From positions 248,001 to 312,000 of the forward strand of contig NZ_VWNF01000045.1 in the NCBI RefSeq assembly GCF_008711175.1: a stretch of 64,000 bases of DNA, read 5' to 3'. The notes under the pieces were generated by a model. That model did not search any database. It saw only the letters and a program-made list of their open reading frames with translations, and had not been told where the DNA came from. This document shows, piece after piece, positions 1,332 to 60,963 of this stretch. Position 1 is the first letter of the stretch, and each line of letters begins with the position of its first letter. This DNA is from Nesterenkonia ebinurensis. GTDB lineage: Bacteria; Actinomycetota; Actinomycetes; Actinomycetales; Micrococcaceae. A program made the position numbers and the translations under genes.

Positions 1332-2872
1332 GACTCGGCGTCCTCAGTCCGGCGCGGTCGGTCGAACCAGCCGCGCCGCCAGACCCAGTGCACGCTGGGA
1401 AGCAGGGCAATAAGCACCATGCTGATCACCGAGGTGGTCAGGCTCAGCTGGAGCATCTGCTCATCCAGGTCCAGGAACGCCCAGACGCTCAGCTGGTCCT
1501 GAGCGCCGTAGCAGATGAAGAAGCCCACGGTGAAGATGACCCATCTGGTCTGCCAGTCGTTGCGAATGCCGATCACCGCGAACAGCGGCAGCAGCCAGAG
1601 CAGGTACCAGGGGTGGATGATCGGAGAGAGCACCACCAGGGCGGTGAAGGCCCAGGTCATCCGGTGCATCAGGTGCTTGTCCTCACCGATGAACATCAGT
1701 GCCAGCACAATCACCACGCTCAGCGCACGGCCGGTGACCCGGATGGTGTCCAGGGTCCAGGAGGCGTCCTGGCCGAAGGCGTGCAGGGTGTTGGTCAGCG
1801 CGTCATTGAGGATGCCCATCGGGGACCAGAAGCTGGCTCCGGTGTCTCCGGTGCCGGCCAGCACCATCACCCAGCGCAGCCCGTAGCCGTTGATCCATCC
1901 CACCGTCAGCAGAACGGCTGCTGCGATGCCGGCGGTCGCTGCCCAGCAGATGAACCGCCAGACCCAGGCATGCAGCTGCGGATACCGCTGGTAGAGGTGG
2001 GCGGCCCAGATCAGTCCGATGAACGGCAGCAGCACCATGGAGATGATCTTCATGCCGATCGAGACGGTCACCAGCACCGCGGCGGCCACTCCCCTGGACC
2101 AGTGCTTATCCGCAGTCACGGCGAAGTAGATCCCGGCCAGGGCGAAGCCCATCATCAGCGCGTCATTATGGGCGCTGGAGATGAAGCTGATGATGAACAG
2201 CGGGTTCGCACTGGCCAGCCACTGGGCCCGGCCGCCGTGGATCCCGAAGGCTTGGGCGATCTTGGGCAGGTAGAACATGATGAGCACCACCCCGGCCACG
2301 CAGGCCAGCCGGAAGAGGAACACGGCGGTGTCCACATGGTTGTTGGTGACCTGCATGACCACTGCTTCGATCCAGAGGAACATGGGCCCGTAGGGGGTTT
2401 CGGACTGGGCCCACATGGGGTCGGTGCCGAAGTGGAACCAGTTGTCCAGCTCGGAGACCCCGTCCTGGTAGGGGTCGCGGCCGGCCAGCACCAGCCGCCC
2501 CTGGTTCACGTAGGCATAGACGTCCCGGGAGAAGATCGGCAGGCAGAACAGGTGGGGCACCGACCAGATGGCGGTGGCGATGTTGACCACCCGCAGGCTG
2601 CCGGGCTGCCAGGCCTTCCGGTCAGCCTCGCGCAGTGCGCGGCCCAGCAAGAGCCAGGCGTGGAACATCACCCAGCAGCCCAGGGTCAGCATCACTGTGG
2701 AGAGGCTGACGCCGGCGGGCTCGGTGCGCAGCGGGATCACCCAGGACCACCGGTTGATGGCCGAGGCATTGGCCAACCAGCCGACTCCGAAGGAGCCGAA
2801 GAGCACCAGGAGCGATCCCGCAAACCCCTGGATCAGGGCGCGCAGGATTGGCGGGGAACTCAGGCTGGGCAC
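1328..2872 (-). CDS. MptB-like polyprenol-phosphate-mannose-dependent mannosyltransferase
   Basis: A 514-residue integral membrane protein with about a dozen hydrophobic segments. The motif FSRDVYAYVNQGRLVLAGRDPY near residues 113-134, followed by TPYGPMFLWIEA, is characteristic of the actinobacterial alpha-1,6-mannosyltransferases of the MptA/MptB type (GT-C fold), which use polyprenyl-phosphate mannose outside the membrane to extend lipomannan or related glycans. The acceptor here cannot be told from sequence. The GTG start at 2872 is preceded at seven bases by TAGTTT on the minus strand and has no Shine-Dalgarno sequence, so the transcript may be leaderless. It is the first gene of a two-gene unit with the DUF2079 gene. 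Confidence 0.8.
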   Translation of the reverse strand: MPSLSSPPILRALIQGFAGSLLVLFGSFGVGWLANASAINRWSWVIPLRTEPAGVSLSTVMLTLGCWVMFHAWLLLGRALREADRKAWQPGSLRVVNIATAIWSVPHLFCLPIFSRDVYAYVNQGRLVLAGRDPYQDGVSELDNWFHFGTDPMWAQSETPYGPMFLWIEAVVMQVTNNHVDTAVFLFRLACVAGVVLIMFYLPKIAQAFGIHGGRAQWLASANPLFIISFISSAHNDALMMGFALAGIYFAVTADKHWSRGVAAAVLVTVSIGMKIISMVLLPFIGLIWAAHLYQRYPQLHAWVWRFICWAATAGIAAAVLLTVGWINGYGLRWVMVLAGTGDTGASFWSPMGILNDALTNTLHAFGQDASWTLDTIRVTGRALSVVIVLALMFIGEDKHLMHRMTWAFTALVVLSPIIHPWYLLWLLPLFAVIGIRNDWQTRWVIFTVGFFICYGAQDQLSVWAFLDLDEQMLQLSLTTSVISMVLIALLPSVHWVWRRGWFDRPRRTEDAES

Positions 2873-2879
2873 CTAAGAG

Positions 2880-2885
2880 AAACTA
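2880..2885 (-). promoter_or_regulatory. -10 TAGTTT, leaderless mannosyltransferase mRNA
   Basis: The hexamer ends seven bases before the GTG at 2872. No -35 of good quality is evident. Confidence 0.5.
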
Positions 2886-2898
2886 TCACCCGCGCCCG

Positions 2899-4338
2899 CT
2901 ACACCTTGGGAAACTTGGGCGGTTCGGACTGCGCGATGTGCTCAAGGACACGCACCACCTGGGCGGAGTAGCCGAACTCGTTGTCGTACCAGACGTAGAG
3001 GATGGCCTGTTTGCCGTTGACGATGGTGGCCAGCCCGTCGACCACACCGGCGGCGGTGGAGCCCACGAAGTCTGTGGAGACCACCTCGGCGGAGTCGATG
3101 TAATCCACCTGGGAGTGCAGCGGCCCCTCCAGGGATTCCCGGCGCAGGAACCGGTTGAGTTCCTCCTTGGTGGTCTCCCGCTCAAGTTCCAGGTTAAGAA
3201 TAGCCATGGAAACATCCGGGGTGGGCACCCGAATCGCGTTGCCGGAGAGCTTGCCGGCCAGTTCGGGCAGCGCCTTGGCCACTGCTTTGGCCGCCCCGGT
3301 CTCGGTGAGCACCATGTTCAGGGCAGCGGAACGGCCGCGCCGCTCACCCTTGTGGAAGTTGTCGATGAGATTCTGGTCGTTGGTGTAGGAGTGCACGGTT
3401 TCTACGTGCCCGTGATCGATGCCGTACTGGTCGGCCATGAGCTTAGCCACCGGGGTGATGGCGTTGGTGGTGCAGCTCGCCGCGGAAAGGAGGGTATCCG
3501 CGTTGTCGATCTGCCCATGGTTGACCCCGTAGACGATGTTCTTGATCTCTCCCTTGCCCGGAGCGGTGAGCAGCACCCGGCCCGCGCCCTTGGACTGCAA
3601 GTGTTGGCTGAGGCTCTCCTGATCACGCCAGATGCCGGTGTTGTCCACCACTACGGCATCGCTGATCCCGTGGGCGGTGTAGTCCACCTCCTGCGGGGAA
3701 TTGGCATAGATCACCTTGATATAGGTGCCGTTGGCGATGATCGCGCTGTTCTCCTCATCCACCCGGATGGAGCCGGCGAAAGGTCCGTGCACCGAGTCCC
3801 GGCGCAGCAGGGAGGCCCGCTTGGCCAGGTCATTGCCCTTGCCCTGACGCACCACGATGGCGCGCAGCCGCAGCCCGGTGGCAGAGGAGGCGTGGCCCAC
3901 CATGATCCGGGCCAGCAGGCGCCCGATGCGCCCAAAGCCGTAGAGCACCACATCCTGCGGCTCAGCACGGCCCTGGCCCTTCCTGCCCACCACCTCGGAG
4001 AGCTCCTCGCGGAGGAAGGCTTCGAGCACCGCGCTGCCTGAGGCTTTGAACTTACTGTTCAGCCGGGCCAGGTCGATGCTGGCGGCTCCGAGGTCCAGAG
4101 TGGTCAGGGCCTGCACCAGGGGGAGGGTCTCTGAGATGGGCAGCTCCACCTCGTCCACCTGGCGGGCGAACCGGTGCGCTTTGAGAATGTCGATGGCTGA
4201 CTGGTTGACCAGCTGCCGGCCGTAGATGCCGGTGACTACATTGTTCTCCCGGTAGAGCCGCCCGATGAGCGGGATCATGGTCTCGGCCATCGCTTCGCGG
4301 TCGATCCATTCGTTGAGGTGCTTGCTCACTTCGGCCAT
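2899..4338 (-). CDS. gap: Glyceraldehyde-3-phosphate dehydrogenase, long GapB type
   Basis: Catalyses oxidative phosphorylation of glyceraldehyde 3-phosphate or the reverse reaction. The product is 479 residues, about 140 longer than classical GAPDH, because of an N-terminal extension before the Rossmann motif (LYGFGRIGRLLARIM). The active-site segment ASCTTNAITP carries the catalytic cysteine. The length and extension match the second GAPDH of Corynebacterium and Arthrobacter, which in Corynebacterium works with NADP in gluconeogenesis; cofactor choice here is inferred from that likeness. The frame stays open upstream to 4464, but that reaches into the RNase P RNA 3' end. The ATG at 4338 has AAAGGA twelve bases upstream and yields the usual family N-terminus, so it was chosen. 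It lies directly downstream of rnpB on the same strand. Confidence 0.9.
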   Translation of the reverse strand: MAEVSKHLNEWIDREAMAETMIPLIGRLYRENNVVTGIYGRQLVNQSAIDILKAHRFARQVDEVELPISETLPLVQALTTLDLGAASIDLARLNSKFKASGSAVLEAFLREELSEVVGRKGQGRAEPQDVVLYGFGRIGRLLARIMVGHASSATGLRLRAIVVRQGKGNDLAKRASLLRRDSVHGPFAGSIRVDEENSAIIANGTYIKVIYANSPQEVDYTAHGISDAVVVDNTGIWRDQESLSQHLQSKGAGRVLLTAPGKGEIKNIVYGVNHGQIDNADTLLSAASCTTNAITPVAKLMADQYGIDHGHVETVHSYTNDQNLIDNFHKGERRGRSAALNMVLTETGAAKAVAKALPELAGKLSGNAIRVPTPDVSMAILNLELERETTKEELNRFLRRESLEGPLHSQVDYIDSAEVVSTDFVGSTAAGVVDGLATIVNGKQAILYVWYDNEFGYSAQVVRVLEHIAQSEPPKFPKV

Positions 4339-4420
4339 GCGGGTCTGAGGTCCTTTCACAGAGACGTCGTTGTCTTCAAACGAACATGAGTCTACCCAAG
4401 GTCCTTGGGGTGGGGTTGCG

Positions 4421-4783
<363 letters not shown>

Positions 4784-4813
4784 TGGTGACGAGAGTACAG
4801 CGCCGAAGGTTGT

Positions 4814-4819
4814 TAGGGT
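4814..4819 (+). promoter_or_regulatory. -10 TAGGGT, leaderless yaaA mRNA
   Basis: Ends six bases before the GTG at 4826, and no Shine-Dalgarno sequence fits in between. Confidence 0.55.
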
Positions 4820-4825
4820 ATTCCG

Positions 4826-5587
4826 GTGCTGATCCTGCTCCCGCCCAGTGAGGGCAAGACCGCCCCAGAGAACGACGAGGCCCCGCCGCTGAACCTGGCG
4901 CAGCTGACTCTGCCTGGGCTCGCCAATGCCCGCAGGCAGGTGCTTCAAGCGCTGGTGGAGGCCTCCGGTCGACAGGACGCCCAGCAGGTGCTCAAAGTCG
5001 GCGCCAAGGTCTTGGCCGAAGTGGCGGCCAACCGTCAGCTCGGCCATGCCGCGGCAGCCCCTGCCTGGCAGATCTACACCGGGGTGCTCTACGAGAGTCT
5101 GGGGACGGCGTCGTTGTCTGCTGAGCAGCTGGAGCGGGCGGCCGAGCATGTGCTGATCTTCTCCGGGCTGTTCGGGGTCACCGGATTCACCGACCGGATT
5201 CCGGCCTACCGCTGCGCGATGGATGTGAAGCTGCCGCCGCTGGGGAACCTGGGCACGTTCTGGAAGAATCAGCTGGCCCAGCCCCTGGGCGAGCTGGCTG
5301 AGGACCGACTGCTGGTGGACTGCCGTTCAGGGTCCTATCAGAAGCCCTTCCCCGGGGATCGGTCCCGCAGACTGCAGGTCAACAGCTTCACCGAGCAGAA
5401 CGGTCAGCGGAAGGTGGTCACCCACTTCGCCAAGGCCGCCCGCGGGGAGCTGACCGGGATGCTGCTGCAGGCTGGCACTGCGCCGGAGAGCATCGACGAG
5501 GTCGCCCACATCGCCTCCCGGCGATGGAGGGTCGAGGTTCGCCCCGCCGGGGGCAGAGACCCCCACCAGCTGGACCTGATCAGCTAA
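4826..5587 (+). CDS. yaaA: YaaA family peroxide-stress protein (UPF0246)
   Basis: A 253-residue protein opening [17 protein letters not shown], the signature N-terminus of the YaaA/DUF328 family. In E. coli YaaA limits iron-driven DNA damage during hydrogen peroxide stress, and the fold binds DNA. The middle has [17 protein letters not shown] and the end has [22 protein letters not shown], both family hallmarks. The stop overlaps the convergent cysE stop by four bases. It is divergent from rnpB and sits among sulfur and redox genes (cysK, cysE, msrA), which fits oxidative-stress work but is not proof. Confidence 0.88.
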
Positions 5588-6174
5588 ATGAACAGCGCAG
5601 GGTCCAGCTCGTAGTGAGCCGGGTCCACCAGCGGCTTATGCTCCTCCTCACGGCGCTTGCGGTCCTTGGCAGGCACGCCGATGAGCACCGAGTGAGCCGG
5701 TGCTGACTTCACCACCACTGCGTTGGCACCCACCGCTGAGTGCTCACCGATCTCCACCGGGCCCAGCACCTTGGCCCCAGCGCCGACGGTGACCCCGTCG
5801 CCGAGCGTGGGATGCCGCTTGGTCTGCTCCAGGGAGGTCCCGCCCAGGGTCACCCCCTGGTAGAGCATGCAGTCATCACCGATTTCAGCGGTCTCGCCGA
5901 TCACCACCCCCATGCCGTGATCGATGAAGAAGCGCCGGCCGATAGTGGCCCCGGGATGGATTTCGATGCCGGTAAGCCCTCGGGCAATCTGGGAGACCAC
6001 CCGTGCCGGGGTCTTCAGCGGCGGCACCTGCCACATCTTATTGGCCACCCGGTGCACCCAGACGGCATGCAGCCCTGAGTAGGCCAACACGATCTCGACG
6101 TCGGAACGGGCGGCGGGGTCGTGCTCACGGGCGGCGGTAATATCCTCACGCAGCCGCTTGATCATTTTTTTCAT
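5584..6174 (-). CDS. cysE: Serine O-acetyltransferase
   Basis: Transfers acetyl from acetyl-CoA to serine, the first step of cysteine synthesis. The 196-residue product is the short form lacking the N-terminal alpha domain extension seen in enterics. Left-handed beta-helix hexapeptide repeats run from about residue 70, with [20 protein letters not shown] and [17 protein letters not shown] forming the active-site region. The last residue is isoleucine (ALFI), the feature that lets CysE C-termini insert into the CysK active site to form the cysteine synthase complex. The start overlaps the cysK stop (ATGA), so the pair is co-translated with cysK first. An internal ATG at codon 4 is an alternative start. 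Confidence 0.93.
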
Positions 6175-7103
6175 CCGCGAATGTCTTCATAGAGCAGGGT
6201 GGAGATGTAGCGTTCGCCGAAGTCTGCGGCGATGGTGACGATGAGCTTGTCAGCCATCTCCTCTCGCGCTGCGATCTTCAGCGCGGAGGCCACCATGGCG
6301 CCGGTGGAGATTCCGCCGAGGATTCCCTCCTCAGTGCCGAGCCGGCGCGCGGTGGAGATGGCATCCTCCAGATTGGCCTGGACCACCTCGTTGTAGATCT
6401 CGGTGTCGAGCACCTCGGGCACAAAGTTCGGCCCGATGCCCTGAATCTTATGCGGGCCTGCCGCCCCGCCGGAGAGGATCGGGGAGTCCTCGGGCTCCAC
6501 AGCCACAATGTGCAGATCCGGGTTGTGCTCGCGCAGCTTCCGGCCGGCACCGGTGATGGTCCCGCCGGTGCCGATTCCAGAGACCAGCACACCCACGGTG
6601 CCGTCGGTGTCGCGCCAGATCTCCTCCCCAGTGGTGCTGTAGTGGATGGCGGGGTTGGCCTCATTGGCGAACTGCCGTGCCCAGATGGCGTTCTCGGTCT
6701 CTTCGACGATCTGCTTGGCCTTCTCCACCGCCCCGCGCATACCGTCTGCCCCGGAGGTCAGCACGATCTCAGCCCCGTAGGCACGCAACATGACCCGGCG
6801 CTCAGTGGACATCGTCTCAGGCATGGTGAGCACCACACGGTATCCTCGGGCTGCACCGACCATGGCCAGGGCGATGCCGGTGTTGCCGGAGGTGCCCTCC
6901 ACGATGGTGCCCCCGGGTTTGAGCACCCCGGCGGCCTCGGCTGCGTCGATGATGGCCGCACCGATCCGGTCCTTCACGCTGGAGGCCGGGGAGTAGAACT
7001 CCAGTTTGACCGCCACATTGCCGGGCAGGTCAGCGTCGAGCTTATTGAGCTTGACCAGCGGGGTATTGCCGATGGCCTCGGTGATGTTCTTCAGCAGGGG
7101 CAT
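6171..7103 (-). CDS. cysK: Cysteine synthase (O-acetylserine sulfhydrylase)
   Basis: Joins O-acetylserine and sulfide to give cysteine using pyridoxal phosphate. The PLP lysine is K44 in [11 protein letters not shown], the substrate loop is [11 protein letters not shown], and the phosphate-binding loop is [11 protein letters not shown]. At 310 residues it has the standard family length. The ATG at 7103 has GAAAGGAC seven bases upstream. A candidate -10 (TAGTCT, 7150-7155) gives a leader of about 40 bases. It is the first gene of the cysK-cysE operon. CysK and the isoleucine-ended CysE together should form the regulated synthase complex. Confidence 0.95.
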
Positions 7104-7149
7104 TGGTGCAGTCCTTTCAGTGGACGGGCGCTGTGTGCATCTTCAGCTA

Positions 7150-7155
7150 AGACTA
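7150..7155 (-). promoter_or_regulatory. -10 TAGTCT of cysK-cysE operon
   Basis: Lies 46 bases upstream of the cysK ATG, in the gap between msrA and cysK. No SAM, T-box or other riboswitch-like fold was recognised in the short leader. Confidence 0.4.
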
Positions 7156-7159
7156 TCGT

Positions 7160-7699: not shown

Positions 7700-7757
7700 A
7701 CCGGTGCAAACTCAGCACCTGCGCGGTTCATTCCTGGTAGGCCGGACTGACTGGCAC

Positions 7758-7763
7758 TAGATT
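7758..7763 (+). promoter_or_regulatory. -10 TAGATT, near-leaderless nif3 mRNA
   Basis: Ends seven bases before the ATG at 7771. The intervening GAGGAGC resembles a ribosome-binding site, so this one is ambiguous. Confidence 0.45.
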
Positions 7764-7770
7764 GAGGAGC

Positions 7771-8616: not shown

Positions 8617-8623
8617 GCTTATG

Positions 8624-8640: not shown

Positions 8641-8673
8641 GCCCTTCTATCGGGTCTCCTCTGTGGCACAGGG

Positions 8674-8679
8674 TAAGGT
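8674..8679 (+). promoter_or_regulatory. -10 TAAGGT, leaderless RNase H mRNA
   Basis: Ends eight bases before the GTG at 8688. It supports that GTG over the TTG at 8613 where the frame opens. Confidence 0.5.
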
Positions 8680-8687
8680 TTCTCATC

Positions 8688-12795: not shown

Positions 12796-12801
12796 CACCT
12801 T
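12796..12801 (-). promoter_or_regulatory. -10 TAAGGT, leaderless zapE mRNA
   Basis: Ends six bases before the zapE ATG. Only about 26 bases separate it from the opposing -10 of the diesterase gene, so the two promoters are back to back. Confidence 0.5.
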
Positions 12802-12827
12802 ACGCCTGCCGGGCACTGCGGTTTGGG

Positions 12828-12833
12828 TAGTAT
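12828..12833 (+). promoter_or_regulatory. -10 TAGTAT, leaderless GDPD mRNA
   Basis: Ends seven bases before the GTG at 12841. A TTG at 12823 lies upstream of this hexamer and is therefore an unlikely start. Confidence 0.55.
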
Positions 12834-15805: not shown

Positions 15806-15811
15806 TAGACT
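15806..15811 (+). promoter_or_regulatory. -10 TAGACT, leaderless msrB mRNA
   Basis: Ends six bases before the msrB ATG at 15818. Confidence 0.55.
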
Positions 15812-17337: not shown

Positions 17338-17343
17338 TAGTCT
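17338..17343 (+). promoter_or_regulatory. -10 TAGTCT, leaderless DUF3000-rnd mRNA
   Basis: Ends six bases before the GTG at 17350. Confidence 0.55.
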
Positions 17344-19213: not shown

Positions 19214-19593
19214 CTAATTATCAAGTTGATCGGGTTCTGCATCATCTTGGACTACTCTCACGTCATCTAAGCCGGTCGCAGCCTCGACACCTTCACGGTA
19301 GTTCTCAAGGTCATTATCTGGGATGCCCTCCCCTCCTGTGCGGATAGTGATGGTCATGCATTCATTGCTTGAGTCGTGACGTGCGGATGCGGACCACCCG
19401 CTACCTTCAATGTCCAACTCTTCCAGGGCGGCCACCTCAATGGACTGATCCCCCATTGCCTCGGGCGCTTCCTCAGGCAGCGGGACTCGGCACCAGATCC
19501 AGAGTCATCCCGATCTTGGATGCCCTCCTCACCGCACGCAGTCAGAGTGAGCAGAAGCACCGGGGGGGGGGGAACTGCCAGCGTGTGCCTCAT
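19214..19593 (-). pseudogene. Frameshifted small lipoprotein gene with C11 tract
   Basis: The ATG at 19593 starts a lipoprotein-type N-terminus (MRHTL, then PPPP, then LLLTLTACGEEG) with a clear lipobox cysteine. The PPPP is coded by an unbroken run of 11 cytosines (G11 at 19562-19572 on the plus strand). The frame then runs into an arginine-rich stretch (SRCLRKRPRQW), while another frame carries an acidic, protein-like sequence (PLPEEAPEAMGDQSIEV to DDAEPDQLDN, stop at 19214). One added base in the CCC run at 19482-19484 would join them into a lipoprotein of roughly 120 residues. Whether this is decay, a sequencing error or switchable expression cannot be told. The start overlaps the upstream secreted-protein stop (ATGA). 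No family was recognised. Confidence 0.6.
19562..19572. repeat. Homopolymer G11/C11 inside lipoprotein signal peptide
   Basis: Eleven consecutive guanines on the plus strand, a typical slippage-prone tract. Loss or gain of one base would switch the downstream lipobox in or out of frame. Confidence 0.95.
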
Positions 19594-19925
19594 TCTTCCG
19601 ATCCTATCGAGATACCAGCATCAGCACTGAAATAGTCTGAAAGTCCTTGTACTGGAGTAATGAGCGAGCCGGTGTCGGAACCTCCTGTATGGGTAGCCAA
19701 TGCTGTGTTCCCGCTAAACAGTTCTGCCAGATACCTCGAGAACTCTTCCGCTGGATTGAGAGCCTCCGATGGACCGTTCTCAACTAAGTGATGAACAACT
19801 GCGCCTTCTTCGTAACTTCCACTCGCGGTGGCCCCTGAAATCCCACTCGCGATAAGGAAAGTAACACCCGCACCGCACATTAGAGCCTTTCGTCCTGGTC
19901 CAACTCTGTTCGGCACGTCACGCAT
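19590..19925 (-). CDS. Small secreted protein of unknown function
   Basis: A 111-residue protein with an N-terminal signal peptide: basic MRDVPNRVGPGRK, hydrophobic ALMCGAGVTFLIASGISG, then a probable cleavage site near ATASGS. The mature part is acidic and Gly/Ser-rich (TGGSDTGSLITPVQGLSDYFSADAG) without recognisable motifs. Codon use is AT-richer than the flanking genes. Its stop overlaps the lipoprotein start, so they form a coupled pair. It is next to a histidine kinase pair, so a signal or sensor-accessory role is possible but speculative. Confidence 0.6.
   Translation of the reverse strand: MRDVPNRVGPGRKALMCGAGVTFLIASGISGATASGSYEEGAVVHHLVENGPSEALNPAEEFSRYLAELFSGNTALATHTGGSDTGSLITPVQGLSDYFSADAGISIGSEE
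19601..19606 (-). promoter_or_regulatory. -10 TAGGAT before lipoprotein ORF
   Basis: Ends seven bases before the ATG at 19593, inside the 3' end of the upstream secreted-protein gene. It suggests the lipoprotein can also be transcribed on its own as a leaderless mRNA. Confidence 0.4.
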
Positions 19926-26672: not shown

Positions 26673-26678
26673 AGTCTA
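26673..26678 (-). promoter_or_regulatory. -10 TAGACT, leaderless dxs mRNA
   Basis: Ends six bases before the dxs ATG, between maoC and dxs. Confidence 0.55.
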
Positions 26679-41657: not shown

Positions 41658-41663
41658 AAGGTA
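41658..41663 (-). promoter_or_regulatory. -10 TACCTT, leaderless pafBC-like mRNA
   Basis: Ends seven bases before the ATG at 41650 and begins directly after the TGA of the FKBP gene. Confidence 0.45.
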
Positions 41664-43355: not shown

Positions 43356-43361
43356 ACTCTA
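43356..43361 (-). promoter_or_regulatory. -10 TAGAGT, leaderless FKBP-lipoprotein mRNA
   Basis: Ends seven bases before the ATG at 43348, in the 33-base gap after pafA. Confidence 0.55.
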
Positions 43362-44887: not shown

Positions 44888-45091
44888 CTACTGGCCACCC
44901 TTCTGCACGAAGCCCTTGACGAACTCTTCGGCATTGGCCTCCAGAACGGTGTCGATCTCATCGAGCAGACTGTCCAGCTCCTGGGCCCGCTCGGCTGACT
45001 GCGGGTTTCCCTTGACCTGGCCAGAGTCTGCGGATTCGGGGGTCTCCTCCCCGCCGGGGCGGTTCGGCTGCTTCTGCGGCTGTGCTGACAT
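44888..45091 (-). CDS. pup: Prokaryotic ubiquitin-like protein Pup
   Basis: A 67-residue intrinsically disordered modifier. The C-terminal half (LDSLLDEIDTVLEANAEEF then VKGFVQKGGQ) is the ARC-binding helix and attachment end. It ends in GGQ, so Dop must deamidate the glutamine before PafA can attach it. TAAGAT ends six bases before the ATG, making the transcript leaderless and independent of dop. The position arc-dop-pup-pafA is the standard order minus the proteasome subunits. Confidence 0.96.
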   Translation of the reverse strand: MSAQPQKQPNRPGGEETPESADSGQVKGNPQSAERAQELDSLLDEIDTVLEANAEEFVKGFVQKGGQ

Positions 45092-45097
45092 GGTTCT

Positions 45098-45103
45098 ATC
45101 TTA
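45098..45103 (-). promoter_or_regulatory. -10 TAAGAT, leaderless pup mRNA
   Basis: Ends six bases before the pup ATG, in the 29-base gap after dop. It would let Pup, needed in excess, be made independently of the enzymes upstream. Confidence 0.55.
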
Positions 45104-50079: not shown

Positions 50080-50085
50080 ATCGTA
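50080..50085 (-). promoter_or_regulatory. -10 TACGAT, leaderless HAD-trmI mRNA
   Basis: Ends seven bases before the ATG at 50072. It faces the PAC2 -10 about 27 bases away. Confidence 0.45.
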
Positions 50086-50111: not shown

Positions 50112-50117
50112 TAGTGT
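50112..50117 (+). promoter_or_regulatory. -10 TAGTGT, leaderless PAC2 mRNA
   Basis: Ends seven bases before the GTG at 50125. The frame is open further upstream, but those starts would precede this promoter. Confidence 0.55.
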
Positions 50118-52701: not shown

Positions 52702-52707
52702 ACAGTA
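52702..52707 (-). promoter_or_regulatory. -10 TACTGT, leaderless mRNA of acidic protein
   Basis: Ends six bases before the ATG at 52695. Confidence 0.5.
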
Positions 52708-52776: not shown

Positions 52777-52782
52777 TAAGGT
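52777..52782 (+). promoter_or_regulatory. -10 TAAGGT, leaderless DUF5703 mRNA
   Basis: Ends seven bases before the ATG at 52790. A TTGACG lies only eight bases upstream, too close to be its -35. Confidence 0.55.
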
Positions 52783-52996: not shown

Positions 52997-52997
52997 C

Positions 52998-54287: not shown

Positions 54288-54294
54288 GCTTCTC

Positions 54295-54300
54295 ACCTTA
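54295..54300 (-). promoter_or_regulatory. -10 TAAGGT, leaderless M20 peptidase mRNA
   Basis: Ends seven bases before the ATG at 54287. Confidence 0.55.
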
Positions 54301-54461
54301 TCTGGCCCAAGGGCGCTATTGAGTTGTCAAGCTGCGTGCCCGTGCCTGCCGTGGCAGGGGGCTGAGGAAGCGGTGGGGTCAGTGCTCTGACTGGGTGGGC
54401 AGCCTCGGGCAGCCTGAACCGGCACCCCTCCGGCTCACCAGGAGCGATGAAGGCGCAGGGA

Positions 54462-56042
54462 TCAGACCGCTTCACCGAGTGCCCAGTCGGGAGGCCGGTC
54501 AGGCTGGGTGCCCTCCCTGTCGTGGCGGGTCGGTGTGGGTGAGGCCCGGGCTTGTTCCGGTTCCTCTGACCGATCAGTACTGGGCTGCAGTTCTGGGAGG
54601 AGTCCGTGGCTTTTCATCTCATGATGGTGGTGGCAGAGCACCTGAGCATTCGCGGCGTTGGTGGCACCACCGGTTTCGTAGCTGGTTTTGTGGTCGATGT
54701 CGGCCCGAAACCCGGGCTCGGTGCACCCGGCGGTTTGGCAATGCCCATCGCGCAGCAGCACTGCGGCACGCAGGTTACCGGTGACAAACCGGGAAACTGA
54801 TTCTGCTTCTAGAAGGTTCTTGCCCTGAGTGAGCTTCCCGGCCAAGACCCGGGTGGTGGCCTCCGCGCACTCCGCGGCATCGAGGCCCTGCACCCCGGTC
54901 AGGGGGTTGGACTTACCGAGTTTCACGATCCGCACCGGCCGCGGCTTCCCCTCAGCGGTGGTCTTCGTGCCGGTGAGGTAGAAGGTCTTCTCCACCTCCG
55001 GGTCACCAGTGATCCGGCGTGCCTCAGCTGCGGGAAGGATGAACCGCCCATCAGTACTGACCGCGGGGGCATCCGAAGCGCCGGTGAGGGTGTCCAGGGG
55101 GATGGTGATATTGACGCCCGCAGCCTTGACCGGCGCACGCCTCCCCGCCCCACTCGTGATCCTCCCTGGGTCGGCGGTCTCTCCTTGTGCTCCGATGGTC
55201 AGCCAGTCGGCGAGAATATCGGCCATCCTGTTGTAGTAGGTGGCTTCCTGCGACTGCCCCTCGGCGTTCTCCCTTTTACGTGATGTGTTACCGGCCAGGG
55301 TATGCAGTTGCTGCTCCACCGGCTCCAGCACATCCCAGGACAGTTTGGCCTTCAGGGTGGTCATCCCGTCATCATGCCGGGTGAAAGACACATAACGTTT
55401 GGTCTTCGCGATCTCGTAGCGTCGCTGATGCCCCTCCGTGTCTAACCCTGCGACGGTGTTGCGGACTTTACGGGCCAGGGTGTTCCGGTTCTCCCCCGCT
55501 GTCACCTGGGCGCACTCGTCATCCAGGGCACCTGTAAGCTCCCGCTGCACATCAGGCTTACCAGTGTTGGTCTCGATCAGGTCCCGGACGCCCTCAGCAA
55601 TCTTCTGAACCCGGTCCAGATCGATGCGCCCGGCCTGGTAGGCCTTCCAAGTCTTCGGCAACCATTCCTGGGCTGTTTCAGCGGTGGTGAGCATCCGGCG
55701 CACCTGCCCCTCGGGCACACCCAGCATCAAGGCAGCCTCACGGTGCACGGCCTTCAGAACAGCCTCCCGGCTGAAAGTGTGCTGCGGCTCCTCCTGAAGC
55801 AACCGACGCTCGCGATAGTCCACCAGCAGCTGGATCTTCCGAGCCTCAGCCCGACGGATGACCACCTCTTCCTCCCACGCGGCAACCAGTTCAGGCTCCC
55901 GGGTCAGGTGGGCATACCCCTCAGGCAACACTGGGCACACAGACGAGCCGACGTCGTCGTCATGTCCCCTCGACCCCGTACCCGTCCCAGGACCGCCGGG
56001 GGTTACCGGCATCTGGGGTGTTGTGGTGGGGCGTGTGTTCAT
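54462..56042 (-). CDS. DUF222-HNH endonuclease-like protein (13E12 repeat family)
   Basis: A 526-residue protein of the large actinobacterial DUF222/HNH group (REP13E12 relatives), multi-copy and mobile in some mycobacteria. The DUF222 helical region covers about residues 60-330 (EAALMLGVPEGQVRRMLTTAE, AYQAGRIDLDRVQKIAEGV). The HNH motif is near the C-terminus: HCQTAGC, DIDHKTSYETGG and NAQVLCHHHHEMKSHG, so zinc ligands and the catalytic histidine are present. No Shine-Dalgarno is seen; TATAGA lies three bases before the ATG. It occupies an accessory-looking stretch beside a decayed tag gene. Function is unknown; a selfish or anti-phage nuclease role is only conjecture. Confidence 0.85.
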   Translation of the reverse strand: MNTRPTTTPQMPVTPGGPGTGTGSRGHDDDVGSSVCPVLPEGYAHLTREPELVAAWEEEVVIRRAEARKIQLLVDYRERRLLQEEPQHTFSREAVLKAVHREAALMLGVPEGQVRRMLTTAETAQEWLPKTWKAYQAGRIDLDRVQKIAEGVRDLIETNTGKPDVQRELTGALDDECAQVTAGENRNTLARKVRNTVAGLDTEGHQRRYEIAKTKRYVSFTRHDDGMTTLKAKLSWDVLEPVEQQLHTLAGNTSRKRENAEGQSQEATYYNRMADILADWLTIGAQGETADPGRITSGAGRRAPVKAAGVNITIPLDTLTGASDAPAVSTDGRFILPAAEARRITGDPEVEKTFYLTGTKTTAEGKPRPVRIVKLGKSNPLTGVQGLDAAECAEATTRVLAGKLTQGKNLLEAESVSRFVTGNLRAAVLLRDGHCQTAGCTEPGFRADIDHKTSYETGGATNAANAQVLCHHHHEMKSHGLLPELQPSTDRSEEPEQARASPTPTRHDREGTQPDRPPDWALGEAV

Positions 56043-56297
56043 GGGTCTATACTTTCGAATCTGTATGTGTTCTGTGTCTTTTGGTGTTGTGATATTTCTT
56101 ATGTTCCAGTCTAGCGGCAGGCACGGAGACGCTAAATATCCGATAGAGCTCAGAGGGCGGCGTGGTACCTGAATCTCAAGAGAGCGCGAGGAAGCCTCTC
56201 CGCCTGATCACCCGCTGCGCCACCGGAAGCACCGGGAAGAGCCCCTGAATCCGCCGCGGATCTTGACCTGCCAGCTCAACACATCCTGCACAGCCGG
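56043..56297. other. Non-coding stretch, no recognised gene
   Basis: About 255 bases upstream of the HNH gene. The first 60 are AT-rich (cttttggtgttgtgatattt) and probably hold the HNH promoter. Short open frames here resemble no family. Together with the tag remnant it makes the longest stretch without an intact gene (56043-56625). Confidence 0.6.
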
Positions 56298-56516
56298 ACC
56301 ACCGGAGACATACCTCGATCTAATGCATTGACCCCCACTACCGTCTTCGCCTTCATGCAGGCCATGGGCCTGATCAGCGACCACATCCAGGACTGCACCG
56401 TGCGCGCCGCTGTAGAAGATGCCGACGGCGGATTCACCCAGCCCTCGCGCTCCACTTCCAAACACCCACCAACCGCCAATAGGTTAAGCGAGGGATATGA
56501 AAGCTTCTCCCCATGA
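56298..56516 (+). pseudogene. tag: C-terminal remnant of DNA-3-methyladenine glycosylase I
   Basis: The plus-strand frame reads TTGDIPRSNALTPTTVFAFMQAMG, then LISDHIQDC, closely resembling the Tag C-terminus, in which an (E/D)IP segment is followed by about 20 residues, GPTTVYAFMQA-G-(V/L)NDH and a zinc cysteine. Those 20 intervening residues, including the conserved lysine-rich helix, are missing, and the N-terminal 120 residues with the active-site tryptophan and glutamate are absent upstream. The frame then continues into unrelated sequence to a stop at 56516. This is a decayed fragment, not a working repair enzyme. Confidence 0.7.
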
Positions 56517-56625
56517 TGGTGGCCACAGCACTTCCGCGCGAAGTGGAGGATGCCGATGGCCTGGTCCGTGCTCCGTCCGCAGCCGTTTGTGACACCCTTT
56601 GTGACATGCTGCAACGCCTGACGAT

Positions 56626-57093
56626 CTATGTGCTGACGGGTGGAACGATGGCCCGGTGCTCCACCGGGGTTGAGTAGACCACGCTGGTCGAGACTGCCCC
56701 GAGTGTTGCCAGTTTTGCGTTCGTCCTTTCCAGCTCGGCCATGGAGGCGGCATGGACTTTGAGGATGAAGCAGTCCTCTCCGGTCACATGATGCGCCTCG
56801 GTGACCTGTGGCAGATTTTCCATCAGATCATAGAACGGCTTGTAGTACCCGGAGGGATAGCGCAGTCGCACGATGGCCAGGATGGGCAGCCCCACCGCCT
56901 CGGGGTCCACCACGGCACGGAATCCGCGAATCACTCCGCCCTCTGTCAGACGGCGCAGACGCTCGGCTGTGGAGCTGGCAGACAGGTTGATCCGCCGTGC
57001 CAGCTCTGCAGTGCTGATACGGCCGTCCTCCTGCAGAGCGTTGAGGATTCGGGAATCTGTCTCATCGAGCGCAGGGTAGGTATTCAACGGCAT
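56626..57093 (-). CDS. Lrp/AsnC family transcriptional regulator
   Basis: A 155-residue regulator. The N-terminal helix-turn-helix (ETDSRILNALQEDGRISTAEL, then INLSASSTAERLRRL) is followed by the RAM ligand-binding domain (VVDPEAVGLPILAIVRLRYPSG, VTEAHHVTGEDCFILKVHAAS). Family members sense amino acids. TAGTAT ends seven bases before the ATG at 57093. The divergent rhodanese gene 93 bases away is the likeliest target, since autoregulation and control of a divergent neighbour are usual in this family. Confidence 0.92.
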   Translation of the reverse strand: MPLNTYPALDETDSRILNALQEDGRISTAELARRINLSASSTAERLRRLTEGGVIRGFRAVVDPEAVGLPILAIVRLRYPSGYYKPFYDLMENLPQVTEAHHVTGEDCFILKVHAASMAELERTNAKLATLGAVSTSVVYSTPVEHRAIVPPVST

Positions 57094-57100
57094 AATGTGG

Positions 57101-57106
57101 ATACTA
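57101..57106 (-). promoter_or_regulatory. -10 TAGTAT, leaderless Lrp-type regulator mRNA
   Basis: Ends seven bases before the ATG at 57093. Confidence 0.55.
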
Positions 57107-57174
57107 GCGGGGATTCCACGGCGTCAGAGCCCAACTTCCGTGCATTGGTTATTCATCCCGTGTAGCGTGAGTCA

Positions 57175-57180
57175 TAGGGT
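57175..57180 (+). promoter_or_regulatory. -10 TAGGGT, leaderless rhodanese mRNA
   Basis: Ends six bases before the first of two tandem ATG codons at 57187. Confidence 0.55.
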
Positions 57181-57186
57181 TGAAAC

Positions 57187-57597
57187 ATGATGACTGCTGA
57201 AGAGTTTTTCCTTGCTTCCCTGGCCTTCAAGACCGACCCTTCGGATCTCGGTGAAGCGCGGATGAGGGGCGAGGGGCCCGTCGTCGTCGATGTGCGTAAC
57301 CAAGCAGCCTGGGACCAGGGGCACATCCCAGGTGCGCTGCATATCCCGCGGGCTGAGATGCCTGACCGCCTACCTGCCCTAATCCCAGAGCAGAGCACCG
57401 AGATTGTTCTCTACTGCTGGGGGCCGGGCTGCAACGGCAGCACCAAGGCTGCGCTGGACCTCACCAGGGTGGGCTATACGAGCGTGAAGGAACTGCTGGG
57501 CGGCTACGAATACTGGGCCAGGGAGGGCCTTGCCATCGAAACAGCGAAGGGACGTACCCGCCGCCCCGTGGACGAGCTGACCGCCCCAGTGAGCTAG
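57187..57597 (+). CDS. Rhodanese-like domain protein
   Basis: A 136-residue single-domain sulfurtransferase-like protein. The N-terminal motif is VVVDVRNQAAWDQGHIPGALHIPR, and the active-site loop is LYCWGPGCNGSTKAA, with C77 at the usual catalytic position and C82 as a second cysteine. The loop is that of the small group found beside Lrp-type regulators rather than of classical thiosulfate sulfurtransferase. The sulfur acceptor is unknown. Divergence from the Lrp gene suggests amino-acid-responsive control. Confidence 0.9.
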   Translation: MMTAEEFFLASLAFKTDPSDLGEARMRGEGPVVVDVRNQAAWDQGHIPGALHIPRAEMPDRLPALIPEQSTEIVLYCWGPGCNGSTKAALDLTRVGYTSVKELLGGYEYWAREGLAIETAKGRTRRPVDELTAPVS

Positions 57598-57604
57598 ACG
57601 CCAG

Positions 57605-57647
57605 AAACCCGGTCTGGGCCAGGAAAAGTCCTGATCAGGCCGGGTTT
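57605..57647. terminator. Bidirectional hairpin between rhodanese and tRNA-Leu
   Basis: AAACCCGG near 57605 pairs with CCGGGTTT ending at 57647, with an inner CCAGGA/TCCTGA stem. Terminal AAA/TTT gives a short U-run in both directions. It can end both the rhodanese and the oppositely directed tRNA transcripts. Confidence 0.65.
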
Positions 57648-57655
57648 AGCGGCTG

Positions 57656-57743
57656 TGCGCGGAGCGGGACTTGAACCCGCACCTCCGATAAGTTGGAGAC
57701 TAGCACCTCAAGCTAGCGCGTCTACCTATTCCGCCACCCGCGC
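57656..57743 (-). tRNA. tRNA-Leu (anticodon GAG)
   Basis: An 88-base class II tRNA. The acceptor stem is GCGCGGG/TCCGCGC with discriminator A, the anticodon stem is CTAGC/GCTAG enclosing loop TTGAGGT (anticodon GAG, reading CUC/CUU), the long variable arm is CTCC/GGAG, and the T arm is GCGGGTTCAAGTCCCGC. The 3' CCA is not encoded. It lies between the rhodanese terminator and rpmE2. Confidence 0.96.
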
Positions 57744-57850
57744 AGGTGGTTGGCTGCTCACTTCTGGAGCCAGGAAACTCTAGCACGTGAGCAGCCGATG
57801 AGCCGAACCGTCCGGCACAAACCTGAGCCGGCGGCGTCGTGCTCGGAAAG

Positions 57851-58108
57851 CTACTTCTTGCCGCCGAAGCCTGCGAAGCGCTTGTTGAACTTGTCCACAC
57901 GCCCTGCGGAGTCCATGATGCGCTGCTTACCGGTGTAGAACGGGTGCGATGCGGCAGAGATCTCCACATCGATCACCGGGTAGGTGTTGCCGTCCTCCCA
58001 CTCCATGGTCTTCTCAGAGGTGGCGGTGGAGCGGGTGAGCACCTTCTCGCCGGAGGAGAGGTCGTTGAAGATCACCAGCTGATAGGTCGGGTGAATGTCA
58101 GTCTTCAT
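57851..58108 (-). CDS. rpmE2: Ribosomal protein bL31, type B (zinc-free)
   Basis: An 85-residue large-subunit protein opening [16 protein letters not shown], with [25 protein letters not shown]. It has no cysteines, so it is the C-minus (type B) form. In many bacteria type B L31 is Zur-repressed and used under zinc limitation, but no clear Zur palindrome is visible in the 107 bases upstream, so it may be constitutive here. The ATG at 58108 has AAAGGA upstream. Confidence 0.96.
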
Positions 58109-58215
58109 TAGTGTCAGTGTCCTTTTCTTGCGCCGCTGATCCCCGGAACCCCGAGGCTGCCAGAAGCTTGGGAGACATAAAAGTGTGCGGGCCGCAGCAC
58201 GGCCAACGATCTATC

Positions 58216-59112
58216 CTACACGATGGTGAAGAGATTGTTGAGCATCACGCCCAGGGCCACTAGGCCTAGGGTGATGATCACTGCGCGCAGCACCAGCGGG
58301 GAGAGTCTTCGGCCAACCCAGGCGCCGATCAACCCACCCACAGTAGAACCCACCGCGATGATCGCCACCACACCCCAGAGAATCACCCGGTCATCGGGAT
58401 CACGGATCAAATAATCAACCACCACATAGCTGATCGCCGCAATCAGGTTCACAAAGGCCACCAGCAGGTTCTTCACCCCATTGGCCTGCTGCATAGTCGC
58501 AGCCAGCAACACCCCCATAATCCCCATCAGCAGGATCCCCTGGGCAGCCACGAAATACCCACCATAGATCCCGGCCACAAACACCAGCAGAATCAACGGG
58601 GCACCCACCGAATCAGCAGCCTTACGTGCCACCACCTCCGGGGAATCCTCCTCCTGAGGAGTCGCCGGATCATCATCTTCGACCCGCTCAGCGGCCCGAC
58701 GCCTGACCCAGGCCGAGAGCTTCGGCTGGACGATCACCAACCCCAGGGAGACCACAATGAGCGCCGGGGCCACCATCCCGAAAATCTCCTCCGGCAAAGT
58801 AATCAGCAACGTCGCCCCGATCACCCCGCCCAAAAACGAGGCAGGCACCAGTTTGGCCAGCACCGAACGGACCTGGACGATCTCCCGCCGATACCCCCAA
58901 GCCCCGGTGAAGTTCCCGGCGATCAGCCCCATCGCATTCGACACCGTCGCCGAAACCGGCGGCACCCCCATAGCCACCAACACCGGGAAAGTCACCAAGG
59001 TCCCAGAACCCACCACCGCATTAATCGCACCAGCCCACACCCCAGCCAACAGGATCAGCAGCAGCAGACCCAACCCCAAGCCATGCAGCTCAAACTCGAG
59101 AAGCGCCTCCAC
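58216..59112 (-). CDS. TauE/SafE family sulfite or organosulfur exporter
   Basis: A 298-residue membrane protein with about eight hydrophobic segments arranged as two similar halves. The N-terminal motif GAINAVVGSGTLVTFPVLVAMGVPPVSATVSNAMGL is the family signature; the second half has GNVGGxxG-like VGSTVGGLIGAWVGRRLSPLVLR. A central cytoplasmic loop is acidic (EDDDPATPQEEDSPE). The transported compound is not predictable. It lies two bases downstream of the ABC ATPase gene. Confidence 0.88.
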   Translation of the reverse strand: MEALLEFELHGLGLGLLLLILLAGVWAGAINAVVGSGTLVTFPVLVAMGVPPVSATVSNAMGLIAGNFTGAWGYRREIVQVRSVLAKLVPASFLGGVIGATLLITLPEEIFGMVAPALIVVSLGLVIVQPKLSAWVRRRAAERVEDDDPATPQEEDSPEVVARKAADSVGAPLILLVFVAGIYGGYFVAAQGILLMGIMGVLLAATMQQANGVKNLLVAFVNLIAAISYVVVDYLIRDPDDRVILWGVVAIIAVGSTVGGLIGAWVGRRLSPLVLRAVIITLGLVALGVMLNNLFTIV

Positions 59113-59114
59113 GT

Positions 59115-59900
59115 TCAGCTCTTCTTGAAGGCGCTGTAGCGGCCCTCGCGCTCCGTCAGCTCCAGCGGCAGATCGAAAGTCTCCGACAGGTTCTCAGAAG
59201 TCAGGGTCTCCCCCAGCGGGCCGGCGGCCACCAAATCACCGTCACGCAGCAGCAGCACATGGCTGAAGCCCGGCGGAATCTCCTCCAGATGGTGAGTGAC
59301 CAGCACAGTGGCCGGGGCCTCCTCCCAGTCCACCAGCTCGGCGATCGAGGAGACCAGCTCCTCCCGTCCGGCCAGGTCAAGCCCGGCACCGGGTTCGTCC
59401 AGAAGCAGCAGCTCGGGATCAGTCATCAGCGCCCGGGCGATCTGCACCCGCTTGCGCTCCCCCTCACTGAGCGTGGAGAAGGGCCGGTCGAACACGGTGC
59501 CCACTCCCCAGGCGTTGAGCAGCCCGAAGGCGCGGCGCTCATCAAACCGTTCATAAGCCTCACGCCACCGCCCAGTCACCCCATAGGCGGCAGTGAGCAC
59601 AGTGTTCAGCGCGGTCTCATGGCCGGGGATGGAGTTGGCCACCGCATTGGAGCACAGTCCGATCCGCGGGCGCAGCTCAAAGACATCCACCTTGCCGAGG
59701 GTCTCATCGAGCACCTGGGCACTACCAGTGGTGGGGAAGAGTCGGGCGGCAGCGATCTGCAGCAGGGTGGTCTTGCCCGCCCCGTTGGGGCCCAGGATCA
59801 CCCAGCGCTGACCCTCCTCGATCTGGAAGCTGACGTTGTTCAGCAGCAGTTTGCGGCCGCGGCGCACGGTGACGCCCTGGAGATTCAGCACGGGACTCAT
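59115..59900 (-). CDS. ABC transporter ATP-binding protein
   Basis: A 261-residue ATPase with Walker A GPNGAGKTT (residues 37-45), signature LSEGERKRVQIARAL, Walker B LLLLDEPGAGLD and the H-loop LVTHHLEEIP. No permease of the ABC type is adjacent; the neighbour is a TauE/SafE protein, which does not use ATP. The layout (one ATPase, iron-siderophore-like architecture, alone) resembles the ModF/YlmA-like soluble ABC proteins, whose partner is unclear. The frame is open to 60125, but the ATG at 59900 has TAGTGT seven bases upstream and excludes overlap with serB. Confidence 0.87.
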   Translation of the reverse strand: MSPVLNLQGVTVRRGRKLLLNNVSFQIEEGQRWVILGPNGAGKTTLLQIAAARLFPTTGSAQVLDETLGKVDVFELRPRIGLCSNAVANSIPGHETALNTVLTAAYGVTGRWREAYERFDERRAFGLLNAWGVGTVFDRPFSTLSEGERKRVQIARALMTDPELLLLDEPGAGLDLAGREELVSSIAELVDWEEAPATVLVTHHLEEIPPGFSHVLLLRDGDLVAAGPLGETLTSENLSETFDLPLELTEREGRYSAFKKS

Positions 59901-59907
59901 GAGCTCA

Positions 59908-59913
59908 ACACTA
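59908..59913 (-). promoter_or_regulatory. -10 TAGTGT, leaderless ABC-TauE mRNA
   Basis: Ends seven bases before the ATG at 59900. Confidence 0.55.
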
Positions 59914-59933
59914 CCGAACCGGTCCGGCGGATA

Positions 59934-59939
59934 TAGGCT
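59934..59939 (+). promoter_or_regulatory. -10 TAGGCT of serB
   Basis: Ends ten bases before the serB ATG at 59950, so the leader would be only a few bases long. Confidence 0.4.
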
Positions 59940-59949
59940 GAGACTCGCT

Positions 59950-60963
59950 ATGCCTGATCTGCCTGCCGGAGCTGTGGCGATGATCGCCGCTGAGACGCTC
60001 AACCCCGCCCTGATCCGTTCCCTCACCGCTGAGTTCGAACGCCGCGGCCACATGCACGCCGCCCAGTCCGCCGAGTTCAGCACCGGCAGCGGTACTGTGC
60101 AGGCTGCCCGGTGGGCGGTCTCCATGGCGGACTATGACGATCCCTCCGGAAGTGACTGGCTGGGCTCCCTGCTGGAGACTGCCGCAGACCAGCTCGACGC
60201 CGCCACCGTCACCACCACTGTGGTGCCCGCCGCCCAGCGGCCTCCTTTAGGCGTGGACGCCGGGGCCACTGCACCCGGCCGAGAGCCGAGCGGGGTTTGC
60301 CCGCCGGCGGGACCGACGCCTCCCGCGATGCTCGTGATGGATGTGGACTCCACCCTCATCGACCAAGAGGTCATCGACCTACTCGCCGCCCATGCCGGGC
60401 GCCAGGCGGAGGTGGCTGAGGTCACCGAGCGGGCCATGCGCGGTGAGCTGGACTTCACCGAGAGCCTGCACGCCCGGGTGGCCACCCTGGGCGGGCTTCC
60501 GGAGTCGGTGCTCCAAGAGACCTTCCAGAAAGTGACCCCGACCTCAGGCGCCCGGGAGCTGATCAGCGCCTGGCGGCGTCGTTCCTGGCCGGTGTATGCG
60601 GTCTCCGGGGGGTTCGTGCAGATTCTGGCTCCGCTGGCCGCCGAGCTGGGTCTGACCGGCTTCCAGGCCAATACCCTTGAGCTGGCCGAGGGTCAGCTCA
60701 CCGGGCGGGTCACCTCAGATGTGGTGGACCGCTCAGTCAAGCAACAGCGACTGCTGGAATGGGCTCAGCAGCACAGCGTCCCTGTTCAGAATGTGGTCGC
60801 GGTAGGCGATGGGGCCAATGACCTGGATATGGTGAGAACAGCCGGTATGGGAGTGGCGTTCTGCGCCAAGCCGGCCCTGGCCGAGCAGGCGGATCTGGTC
60901 ATCAGGCACCGCAGTATGGAACTGATCAGCTACGCGCTCGGCTTAGCGCCGGACCAGGACTAA
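59950..60963 (+). CDS. serB: Phosphoserine phosphatase
   Basis: Final enzyme of serine synthesis. The catalytic HAD domain begins at residue 127: motif I VMDVDSTLIDQEVIDLLAAH (Asp131 nucleophile), motif II YAVSGGFVQIL, and motif IV VVAVGDGANDLDMVRTAGMG. About 125 residues precede it, partly ACT-like (LIRSLTAEFERRG) but with a proline/glycine-rich linker, so amino-acid feedback sensing may be reduced. The ATG at 59950 was chosen over the upstream open frame, which overlaps the divergent ABC gene. Serine feeds CysE at the left of the window. Confidence 0.92.
   Translation: MPDLPAGAVAMIAAETLNPALIRSLTAEFERRGHMHAAQSAEFSTGSGTVQAARWAVSMADYDDPSGSDWLGSLLETAADQLDAATVTTTVVPAAQRPPLGVDAGATAPGREPSGVCPPAGPTPPAMLVMDVDSTLIDQEVIDLLAAHAGRQAEVAEVTERAMRGELDFTESLHARVATLGGLPESVLQETFQKVTPTSGARELISAWRRRSWPVYAVSGGFVQILAPLAAELGLTGFQANTLELAEGQLTGRVTSDVVDRSVKQQRLLEWAQQHSVPVQNVVAVGDGANDLDMVRTAGMGVAFCAKPALAEQADLVIRHRSMELISYALGLAPDQD

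Follow-up and report, generated by a model that had tools for sequence, protein, structure and literature searches.

TANNNT hexamers close to start codons in Nesterenkonia ebinurensis as probable -10 boxes of leaderless mRNAs

In a 64,000-nucleotide stretch of the Nesterenkonia ebinurensis genome (hereafter the window; bases 248001-312000 of a 339-kb contig in an assembly of 3.74 Mb and 50 contigs), 21 start codons are closely preceded by a TANNNT hexamer, and these hexamers are very probably -10 boxes that drive leaderless mRNAs. An initial annotation of the window had listed the 21 starts as having TANNNT 6-8 bases upstream, and the hexamer was found at every one of them, on both strands and always ahead of ATG or GTG. 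The spacing between hexamer and start codon is 6 bases in seven cases (4826, 15818, 17350, 26666, 45091, 52695 and 57187), 7 bases in thirteen and 8 bases in one (8688); the hexamer reads TAGNNT in 13 cases, TAANNT in five and TACNNT in three. Directly visible in the sequence are the hexamer and its spacing, the excess over chance, the conservation, and the scarcity of purines immediately before the start codon.

Eighteen of the 21 starts fall in genes found by the gene caller, the short genes at 19593, 45091 and 57187 being missed. The product of 45091 matched the Pup model above its cut-off, that of 57187 matched rhodanese models below their cut-offs, and an NCBIfam scan of 19593 gave no match. 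Coding score alone picks the cited start in 13 of the 18 called genes and gives another, 9 to 66 bases away, for 2872, 12789, 50072, 50125 and 59900. A joint model was also fitted, which combines the coding score with TANNNT (TA) and Shine-Dalgarno (SD) signals and assigns each gene to a TA-led class, an SD-led class or neither. This picks the cited start in all 18 genes and classes 17 of them as TA-led; the other, 54287, is a near tie, classed as SD-led at 0.53.

The offsets of the hexamer were counted in a genome sample of 1,592,571 bases (43% of the genome, taken in stretches). A coding model based on hexamer composition called 1227 genes in it, with starts chosen by coding score and start-codon weight and upstream signals unused; the coding density of the sample is 0.79, so some genes have been missed. 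The sharp peak of TANNNT that the initial annotation had named as support is present, with 88, 56, 25 and 11 of 1219 usable starts at offsets 6, 7, 8 and 9 respectively. At 30 of the remaining 36 offsets in the range 0-39 there are fewer than ten cases, and the maximum among the 36 is 16, at offset 1. In-frame candidate starts (n = 3068) have TANNNT at offsets 6, 7 and 8 in 3.65, 3.52 and 1.14% of cases; out-of-frame start-like codons (n = 3156) have it in 0.54, 0.48 and 0.73%, with no peak. For the 1216 starts with 120 bases or more between them and the 5′ end of the joined stretch, the hexamer was observed at 6-8 in 168, compared with 22.1 (standard deviation 5.0, maximum 38) in 100 dinucleotide-preserving shuffles of the upstream regions, a rate at which about one of the 53 called genes of the window would be expected to have it by chance.

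By this strict count the class makes up 14% of genes (168/1216). The joint model gives 28% TA, 58% SD and 14% neither, with 366 genes assigned to TA, 228 of them at a posterior above 0.8. As the joint model was seeded with TANNNT hexamers and may add weak members, the size of the class is given here as 14-28%. The fitted TA profile has T in 75%, A in 96% and T in 99% of cases at positions 1, 2 and 6, the three inner bases being loose, although the seeding means that the profile is not independent of the motif. The density of such genes in the window, to which the initial annotation had pointed, is ordinary for this genome: 18 of its 53 called genes are TA-led, 30 SD-led and five neither, and this lies within the range of 17 full 64-kb tiles of the sample (9-21 TA-led of 40-60 genes), two of which overlap the window.

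A further sign comes from base -1, immediately before the start codon. Mapped mycobacterial transcription starts have been reported to favour a purine at +1, preceded at -1 by a pyrimidine and most of all by C (PMC3898074, PMC4633059). In 18 base-by-offset comparisons, for which p values are uncorrected, a purine at -1 was found at offset 7 in only 6 of 56 genes compared with 481 of 1037 genes without the hexamer (p = 4e-8; starts chosen by coding score), a result that survives correction for eighteen comparisons; the corresponding counts are 6/25 at offset 8 (p = 0.04) and 31/88 at offset 6 (p = 0.045). The base A stands at -1 in 4/88, 1/56 and 0/25 genes at offsets 6, 7 and 8, compared with 198/1037 genes without the hexamer. 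Base -1 thus behaves as would be predicted if transcription began on the start codon, an indirect sign. In our reading, if a purine stood 6 bases past the hexamer, transcription would start on it and the mRNA would have a one-base leader. The -1 base of leaderless genes may be under spacing-dependent selection, with purine nearly excluded at spacing 7 so that the register of the start codon is protected; this is put forward tentatively, with slightly less than even credence.

Conservation was assessed in 75 kb of Nesterenkonia muleiensis and in two other close relatives, G012 (a single contig) and G042 (a whole contig and 40 kb of another). Orthologues of genes of contig C42 were accepted at an identity of at least 45%, with the match beginning within the first 12 residues. 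Those without a start codon near the aligned position were left out (2, 3 and 3 TA-led; 2, 3 and 5 SD-led), and the count excludes the orthologues (3, 6 and 2) of genes assigned to neither class. A hexamer at 5-9 bases was present in 12/17 TA-led orthologues in N. muleiensis, 15/21 in G012 and 7/10 in G042. Among SD-led orthologues it was present in 1/28 (54287), 1/39 (59950) and 1/20 (59950) respectively. For the cited starts, N. muleiensis has the hexamer at 14 of the 18 comparable ones, pup included; 2872, for which there is no orthologue row, and 19593 and 57187, which lie outside the called set, are not among the 18. The inner bases vary between relatives while TANNNT stays, as in TAAGGT to TAGAGT, TAGACT to TAGAAT and TAGTCT to TAGGCT.

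The initial annotation had also suggested that genes are sorted into two classes of translation. This stands among close relatives, given the difference between TA-led and SD-led genes in N. muleiensis (12/17 and 1/28 with the hexamer), but not at greater distance, as pup and dxs illustrate. The pup gene is TA-led in the N. ebinurensis window and in N. muleiensis. It was matched in 61/61 genomes, and 30 of these loci, from Micrococcaceae, were examined: 29, all but its own locus, are without the hexamer and have a Shine-Dalgarno-like stretch of at least 4 bases, two of them being from the same genus. The dxs gene has 93% identity to that of N. muleiensis, the only other Nesterenkonia covered in this comparison, and the next matches are in Arthrobacter and its kin at 73-75%. 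Its hexamer is missing at the aligned start in 24/24 Micrococcaceae loci outside Nesterenkonia and present in 21 of the 55 remaining loci, the family of each locus being taken from its record title. For lrp, five of 30 loci were examined; TANNNT is at 7 in its own locus and in L178, L179 and L180 (58-62% identity), and at 6 before a shifted ATG in L181 (44% identity). On these comparisons, individual genes may have become leaderless recently, pup within the genus and perhaps also dxs.

The two classes defined by the joint model also differ in their neighbourhoods. A 4- or 1-base overlap with the upstream gene is found for 132 of 540 co-directional SD-led genes and 6 of 184 co-directional TA-led ones. 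Between divergent starts, with classes and starts taken from the same model, the median distance is 80.5 bp for TA/TA, 143 bp for SD/TA and 177 bp for SD/SD pairs (38, 77 and 39 pairs under 600 bp; 2, 6 and 8 longer pairs left out). The difference between TA/TA and SD/SD is significant with all pairs (p = 6e-5) and at a posterior above 0.8 (p = 0.015; 18 and 13 pairs); the intervals for SD/TA (118-167) and SD/SD (119-207) overlap. The shorter TA/TA spacers, which fit transcription beginning on the start codon, look as if each leader took up some room.

The best explanation is that the hexamers would be -10 elements of the housekeeping sigma factor. RNA polymerase would then begin 6-8 bases downstream, on the purine that opens the ATG or GTG codon; the resulting mRNA would be leaderless, and its translation would begin at the 5′ terminal start codon with no Shine-Dalgarno site. 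Two initiation classes would coexist: promoter-adjacent genes (about 14% by the strict count, about 28% by the joint model) and Shine-Dalgarno-led genes, the latter including most genes that overlap an upstream neighbour. We infer the -10 identity, the transcription start and the leaderless translation, and the offset peak and the -1 base both support the interpretation of the initial annotation.

It is hardly credible that the hexamer is no promoter at all, but an AT-rich, unstructured patch that aids ribosomes, or chance. Start regions in GC-rich genomes are often AT-richer. Nevertheless, the T, A and T of the fitted profile with its loose inner bases (even allowing for its seeding), the gap between 168 genes and 22.1 in shuffles that keep dinucleotide content, and the way in which orthologues alter the inner bases and keep TANNNT all argue against this. 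An alternative that keeps the promoter places the transcription start 1-5 bases ahead of the start codon, so that the mRNAs would be near-leaderless and carry very short leaders. The spread of offsets from 6 to 9, for which a fixed hexamer-to-start rule would misplace some starts by one or two bases, and the departure of offset 9 from the -1 rule would fit this; as purine is avoided at -1 at offset 7 and A is rare there at offsets 6-8, it is considered unlikely. Somewhat less remote, although still improbable, is the view that the -10 boxes are genuine but that many of these genes have stronger promoters further upstream, so that most of their mRNA has a leader and the leaderless form is a minor isoform, which would be compatible with leaderless expression as such. 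In seven of the 40 TA/TA divergent pairs the starts lie over 300 bp from each other, with room for further promoters. Most TA/TA pairs are close together, however, the identity of base -1 varies with the spacing, and few hexamer starts have a strong Shine-Dalgarno match, if partly by necessity.

Several observations weigh against leaderless initiation from the hexamers or blunt the evidence for it. A Shine-Dalgarno match of at least 5 bases is present in 1/168 hexamer genes, compared with 334/973 genes without a hexamer and 24/75 with TANNNT at 14-29, but this scarcity follows in part from the hexamer itself, which takes up the bases where such a match would lie, and a match of at least 4 bases is still found in 35 of the 168. 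TTG starts are absent from the 168 hexamer genes and present in 22 of the 973, which is not significant (p = 0.06); the joint model has one TTG among 366 TA genes, but it penalises TTG. A divergent neighbour is found for 84/168 hexamer genes and 278/973 genes without a hexamer, but it is no commoner than for genes with TANNNT at 14-29 (36/75, p = 0.78). At offset 8 a purine at base -2 is seen in 5/25 genes, a trend only (p = 0.06), and in the 11 genes at offset 9 base -3 is mostly a purine, contrary to the -1 rule. Four of the 18 comparable cited starts (7771, 12841, 41650 and 52790) are without the hexamer in N. muleiensis. Finally, no clear -35 box was found: TTGACA matches of at least 5/6 occur in 10/228 genes at spacers of 16-19 and in 1-6/228 at four other spacer ranges. 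Such a weak excess agrees with the lack of a strongly conserved -35 element in the actinobacterial housekeeping promoter as described by Cortes et al. (PMC3898074).

Hexamers at the 21 cited starts of the window, with the genes that follow and the state of the hexamer in relatives
Hexamer	Position	Strand	Spacing and start	Gene	Remarks
TAGTTT	2880..2885	-	7 before GTG 2872	MptB-family mannosyltransferase	start by coding score alone is 66 bases further in; no orthologue row
TAGGGT	4814..4819	+	6 before GTG 4826	YaaA-like	N. muleiensis TAGGCT at 6
TAGATT	7758..7763	+	7 before ATG 7771	Nif3-like	N. muleiensis: no hexamer
TAAGGT	8674..8679	+	8 before GTG 8688	RNase HI-like	N. muleiensis TAGAGT at 7
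TAAGGT	12797..12802	-	7 before ATG 12789	ZapE	N. muleiensis TAGAGT at 7
TAGTAT	12828..12833	+	7 before GTG 12841	glycerophosphodiester phosphodiesterase-like	divergent from 12789; N. muleiensis: no hexamer
TAGACT	15806..15811	+	6 before ATG 15818	MsrB	N. muleiensis TACACT at 7
TAGTCT	17338..17343	+	6 before GTG 17350	no NCBIfam match	N. muleiensis TAGGCT at 6
TAGGAT	19601..19606	-	7 before ATG 19593	short putative lipoprotein open reading frame	weakest gene of the 21; not called as gene
TAGACT	26673..26678	-	6 before ATG 26666	dxs	N. muleiensis TAGAAT at 6
TACCTT	41658..41663	-	7 before ATG 41650	no NCBIfam match	N. muleiensis: no hexamer
TAGAGT	43356..43361	-	7 before ATG 43348	FKBP-type isomerase-like	N. 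muleiensis TAGAGT at 7
TAAGAT	45098..45103	-	6 before ATG 45091	pup (44888-45091)	N. muleiensis TAGGAT at 7
TACGAT	50080..50085	-	7 before ATG 50072	HAD-family hydrolase	hexamer and spacing identical in G012 and N. muleiensis
TAGTGT	50112..50117	+	7 before GTG 50125	no NCBIfam match	divergent from 50072; kept in G012 and N. muleiensis
TACTGT	52702..52707	-	6 before ATG 52695	no NCBIfam match	kept in three relatives
TAAGGT	52777..52782	+	7 before ATG 52790		no hexamer in N. muleiensis or G042
TAAGGT	54295..54300	-	7 before ATG 54287	M20 peptidase-like	near tie with weak Shine-Dalgarno match; N. muleiensis TAGGGT at 7, G012 none
TAGTAT	57101..57106	-	7 before ATG 57093	Lrp/AsnC-like regulator	TANNNT at 7 in N. 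muleiensis, L178, L179 and L180
TAGGGT	57175..57180	+	6 before ATG 57187	rhodanese-like	
TAGTGT	59908..59913	-	7 before ATG 59900	ABC-type ATPase-like	kept in three relatives

The start at 59950 (+), divergent from 59900, has TAGGCT 10 bases before it, and TANNNT stands at 9 in G012 and G042; it is possibly a near-leaderless start. An RNase P RNA (RF00010, full length) lies at 4421-4779 (-), its 5′ end 47 bases from the divergent leaderless-type start 4826. This RNA and one tRNA are all that an Rfam scan of the window found at gathering thresholds, so no leader element of that library contradicts leaderless mRNAs here. Eleven consecutive G (C on the coding strand) at 19562-19572 lie inside the signal-peptide part of the open reading frame at 19593 (-), whose putative assignment as a lipoprotein was read from the translation. 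This run is one of five G or C runs of at least 9 in the 1.59-Mb sample. Past the lipobox region an acidic, coding-like stretch runs on in another frame, and the gene may be broken or misassembled; no DNA similar to this region was found in the 75-kb stretch of N. muleiensis.

Some further ideas were tried and set aside. In 16 co-directional TA-led genes the hexamer opens with the TAG or TAA stop codon of the upstream gene, and a stop codon shared with the -10 box was considered as a special arrangement. It was rejected, as a passive null in which three frames were read into the upstream regions of divergent TA-led genes gives the same rates. With entry 15, 20, 30, 45 and 60 bases upstream, the fraction of frames stopping in the hexamer is 0.38, 0.36, 0.29, 0.21 and 0.16 in the null and 0.44, 0.39, 0.29, 0.21 and 0.18 as observed (16/75 within 45 bases, 16/55 within 30). 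As TAG is favoured at the start of the hexamer whatever the neighbour, incoming frames will often stop there and no selection need be assumed. No report of such an overlap was found in passages of the Deinococcus-Thermus paper (PMC12340547). Nor does TAG at offset 6 appear to serve as an in-frame stop, being equally common in divergent (68/113) and co-directional (74/115) genes at a posterior above 0.8; the TAG bias looks like a promoter preference.

A special pairing of TA-led genes was likewise discarded, since 40 of 199 divergent pairs are TA/TA and about 39 would be expected under independent assignment. Functional sorting of the classes was sought by a Pfam scan of 110 proteins from each class, out of 137 eligible TA-led and 284 eligible SD-led ones (60-480 amino acids, posterior at least 0.8, within one stretch of four contigs). 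TetR_N was found 6 times against 2, too weak a difference for any claim; ABC_tran had seven SD-led members and did not appear in the TA list of 25 families, which breaks off at single-member families.

Leaderless genes with an adjacent -10 box are a known actinobacterial habit, of which this is an ordinary but clear example. Zheng et al. (2011, PMC3160421) reported TAnnnT about 10 bp upstream of the start in about 20% of genes across 86 of 89 actinobacterial genomes, with switching between TA-led and SD-led genes linear with 16S distance. The genes described here resemble theirs in the TAnnnT near the start, the coexistence with SD-led genes and the switching between classes. There is no difference in kind, although the first triplet is most often TAG in the present genome and base -1 has been examined by spacing. 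In Mycobacterium tuberculosis (Cortes et al., 2013, PMC3898074) and other mycobacteria (Shell et al., 2015, PMC4633059) leaderless transcripts were identified from measured 5′ ends, and account for roughly one in four of the genes that have a primary start; they have RTG at +1. The mycobacterial set shares with the present one a TANNNT -10 box, no conserved -35 element and, for the most part, a purine start with C or another pyrimidine at -1, whereas the Nesterenkonia class is deduced from sequence alone. In Deinococcus-Thermus, another phylum, TANNNT directly before open reading frames has likewise been reported as the -10 region for leaderless mRNAs, with experimental tests (PMC12340547). 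No prior report of leaderless genes in Nesterenkonia was found in a limited search of the open-licence PMC literature, and no start-site map of Micrococcaceae was found by title in that literature on Arthrobacter and Micrococcus luteus.

These results add sequence evidence for leaderless expression in a genus of the Micrococcaceae. They suggest, with coding score alone giving a start other than the cited one in 5 of 18 called genes, that the -10 box should be used in start annotation in the genus as well as the Shine-Dalgarno site. The pattern at -1 would offer a readout of start-site precision from sequence alone, and pup, which differs in class between relatives of the same genus, provides a test case. 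If protection of the start-codon register at -1 and the recent change in pup (perhaps also in dxs) prove true, these genes would be natural paired alleles from which the worth of a leader to a given gene could be judged.

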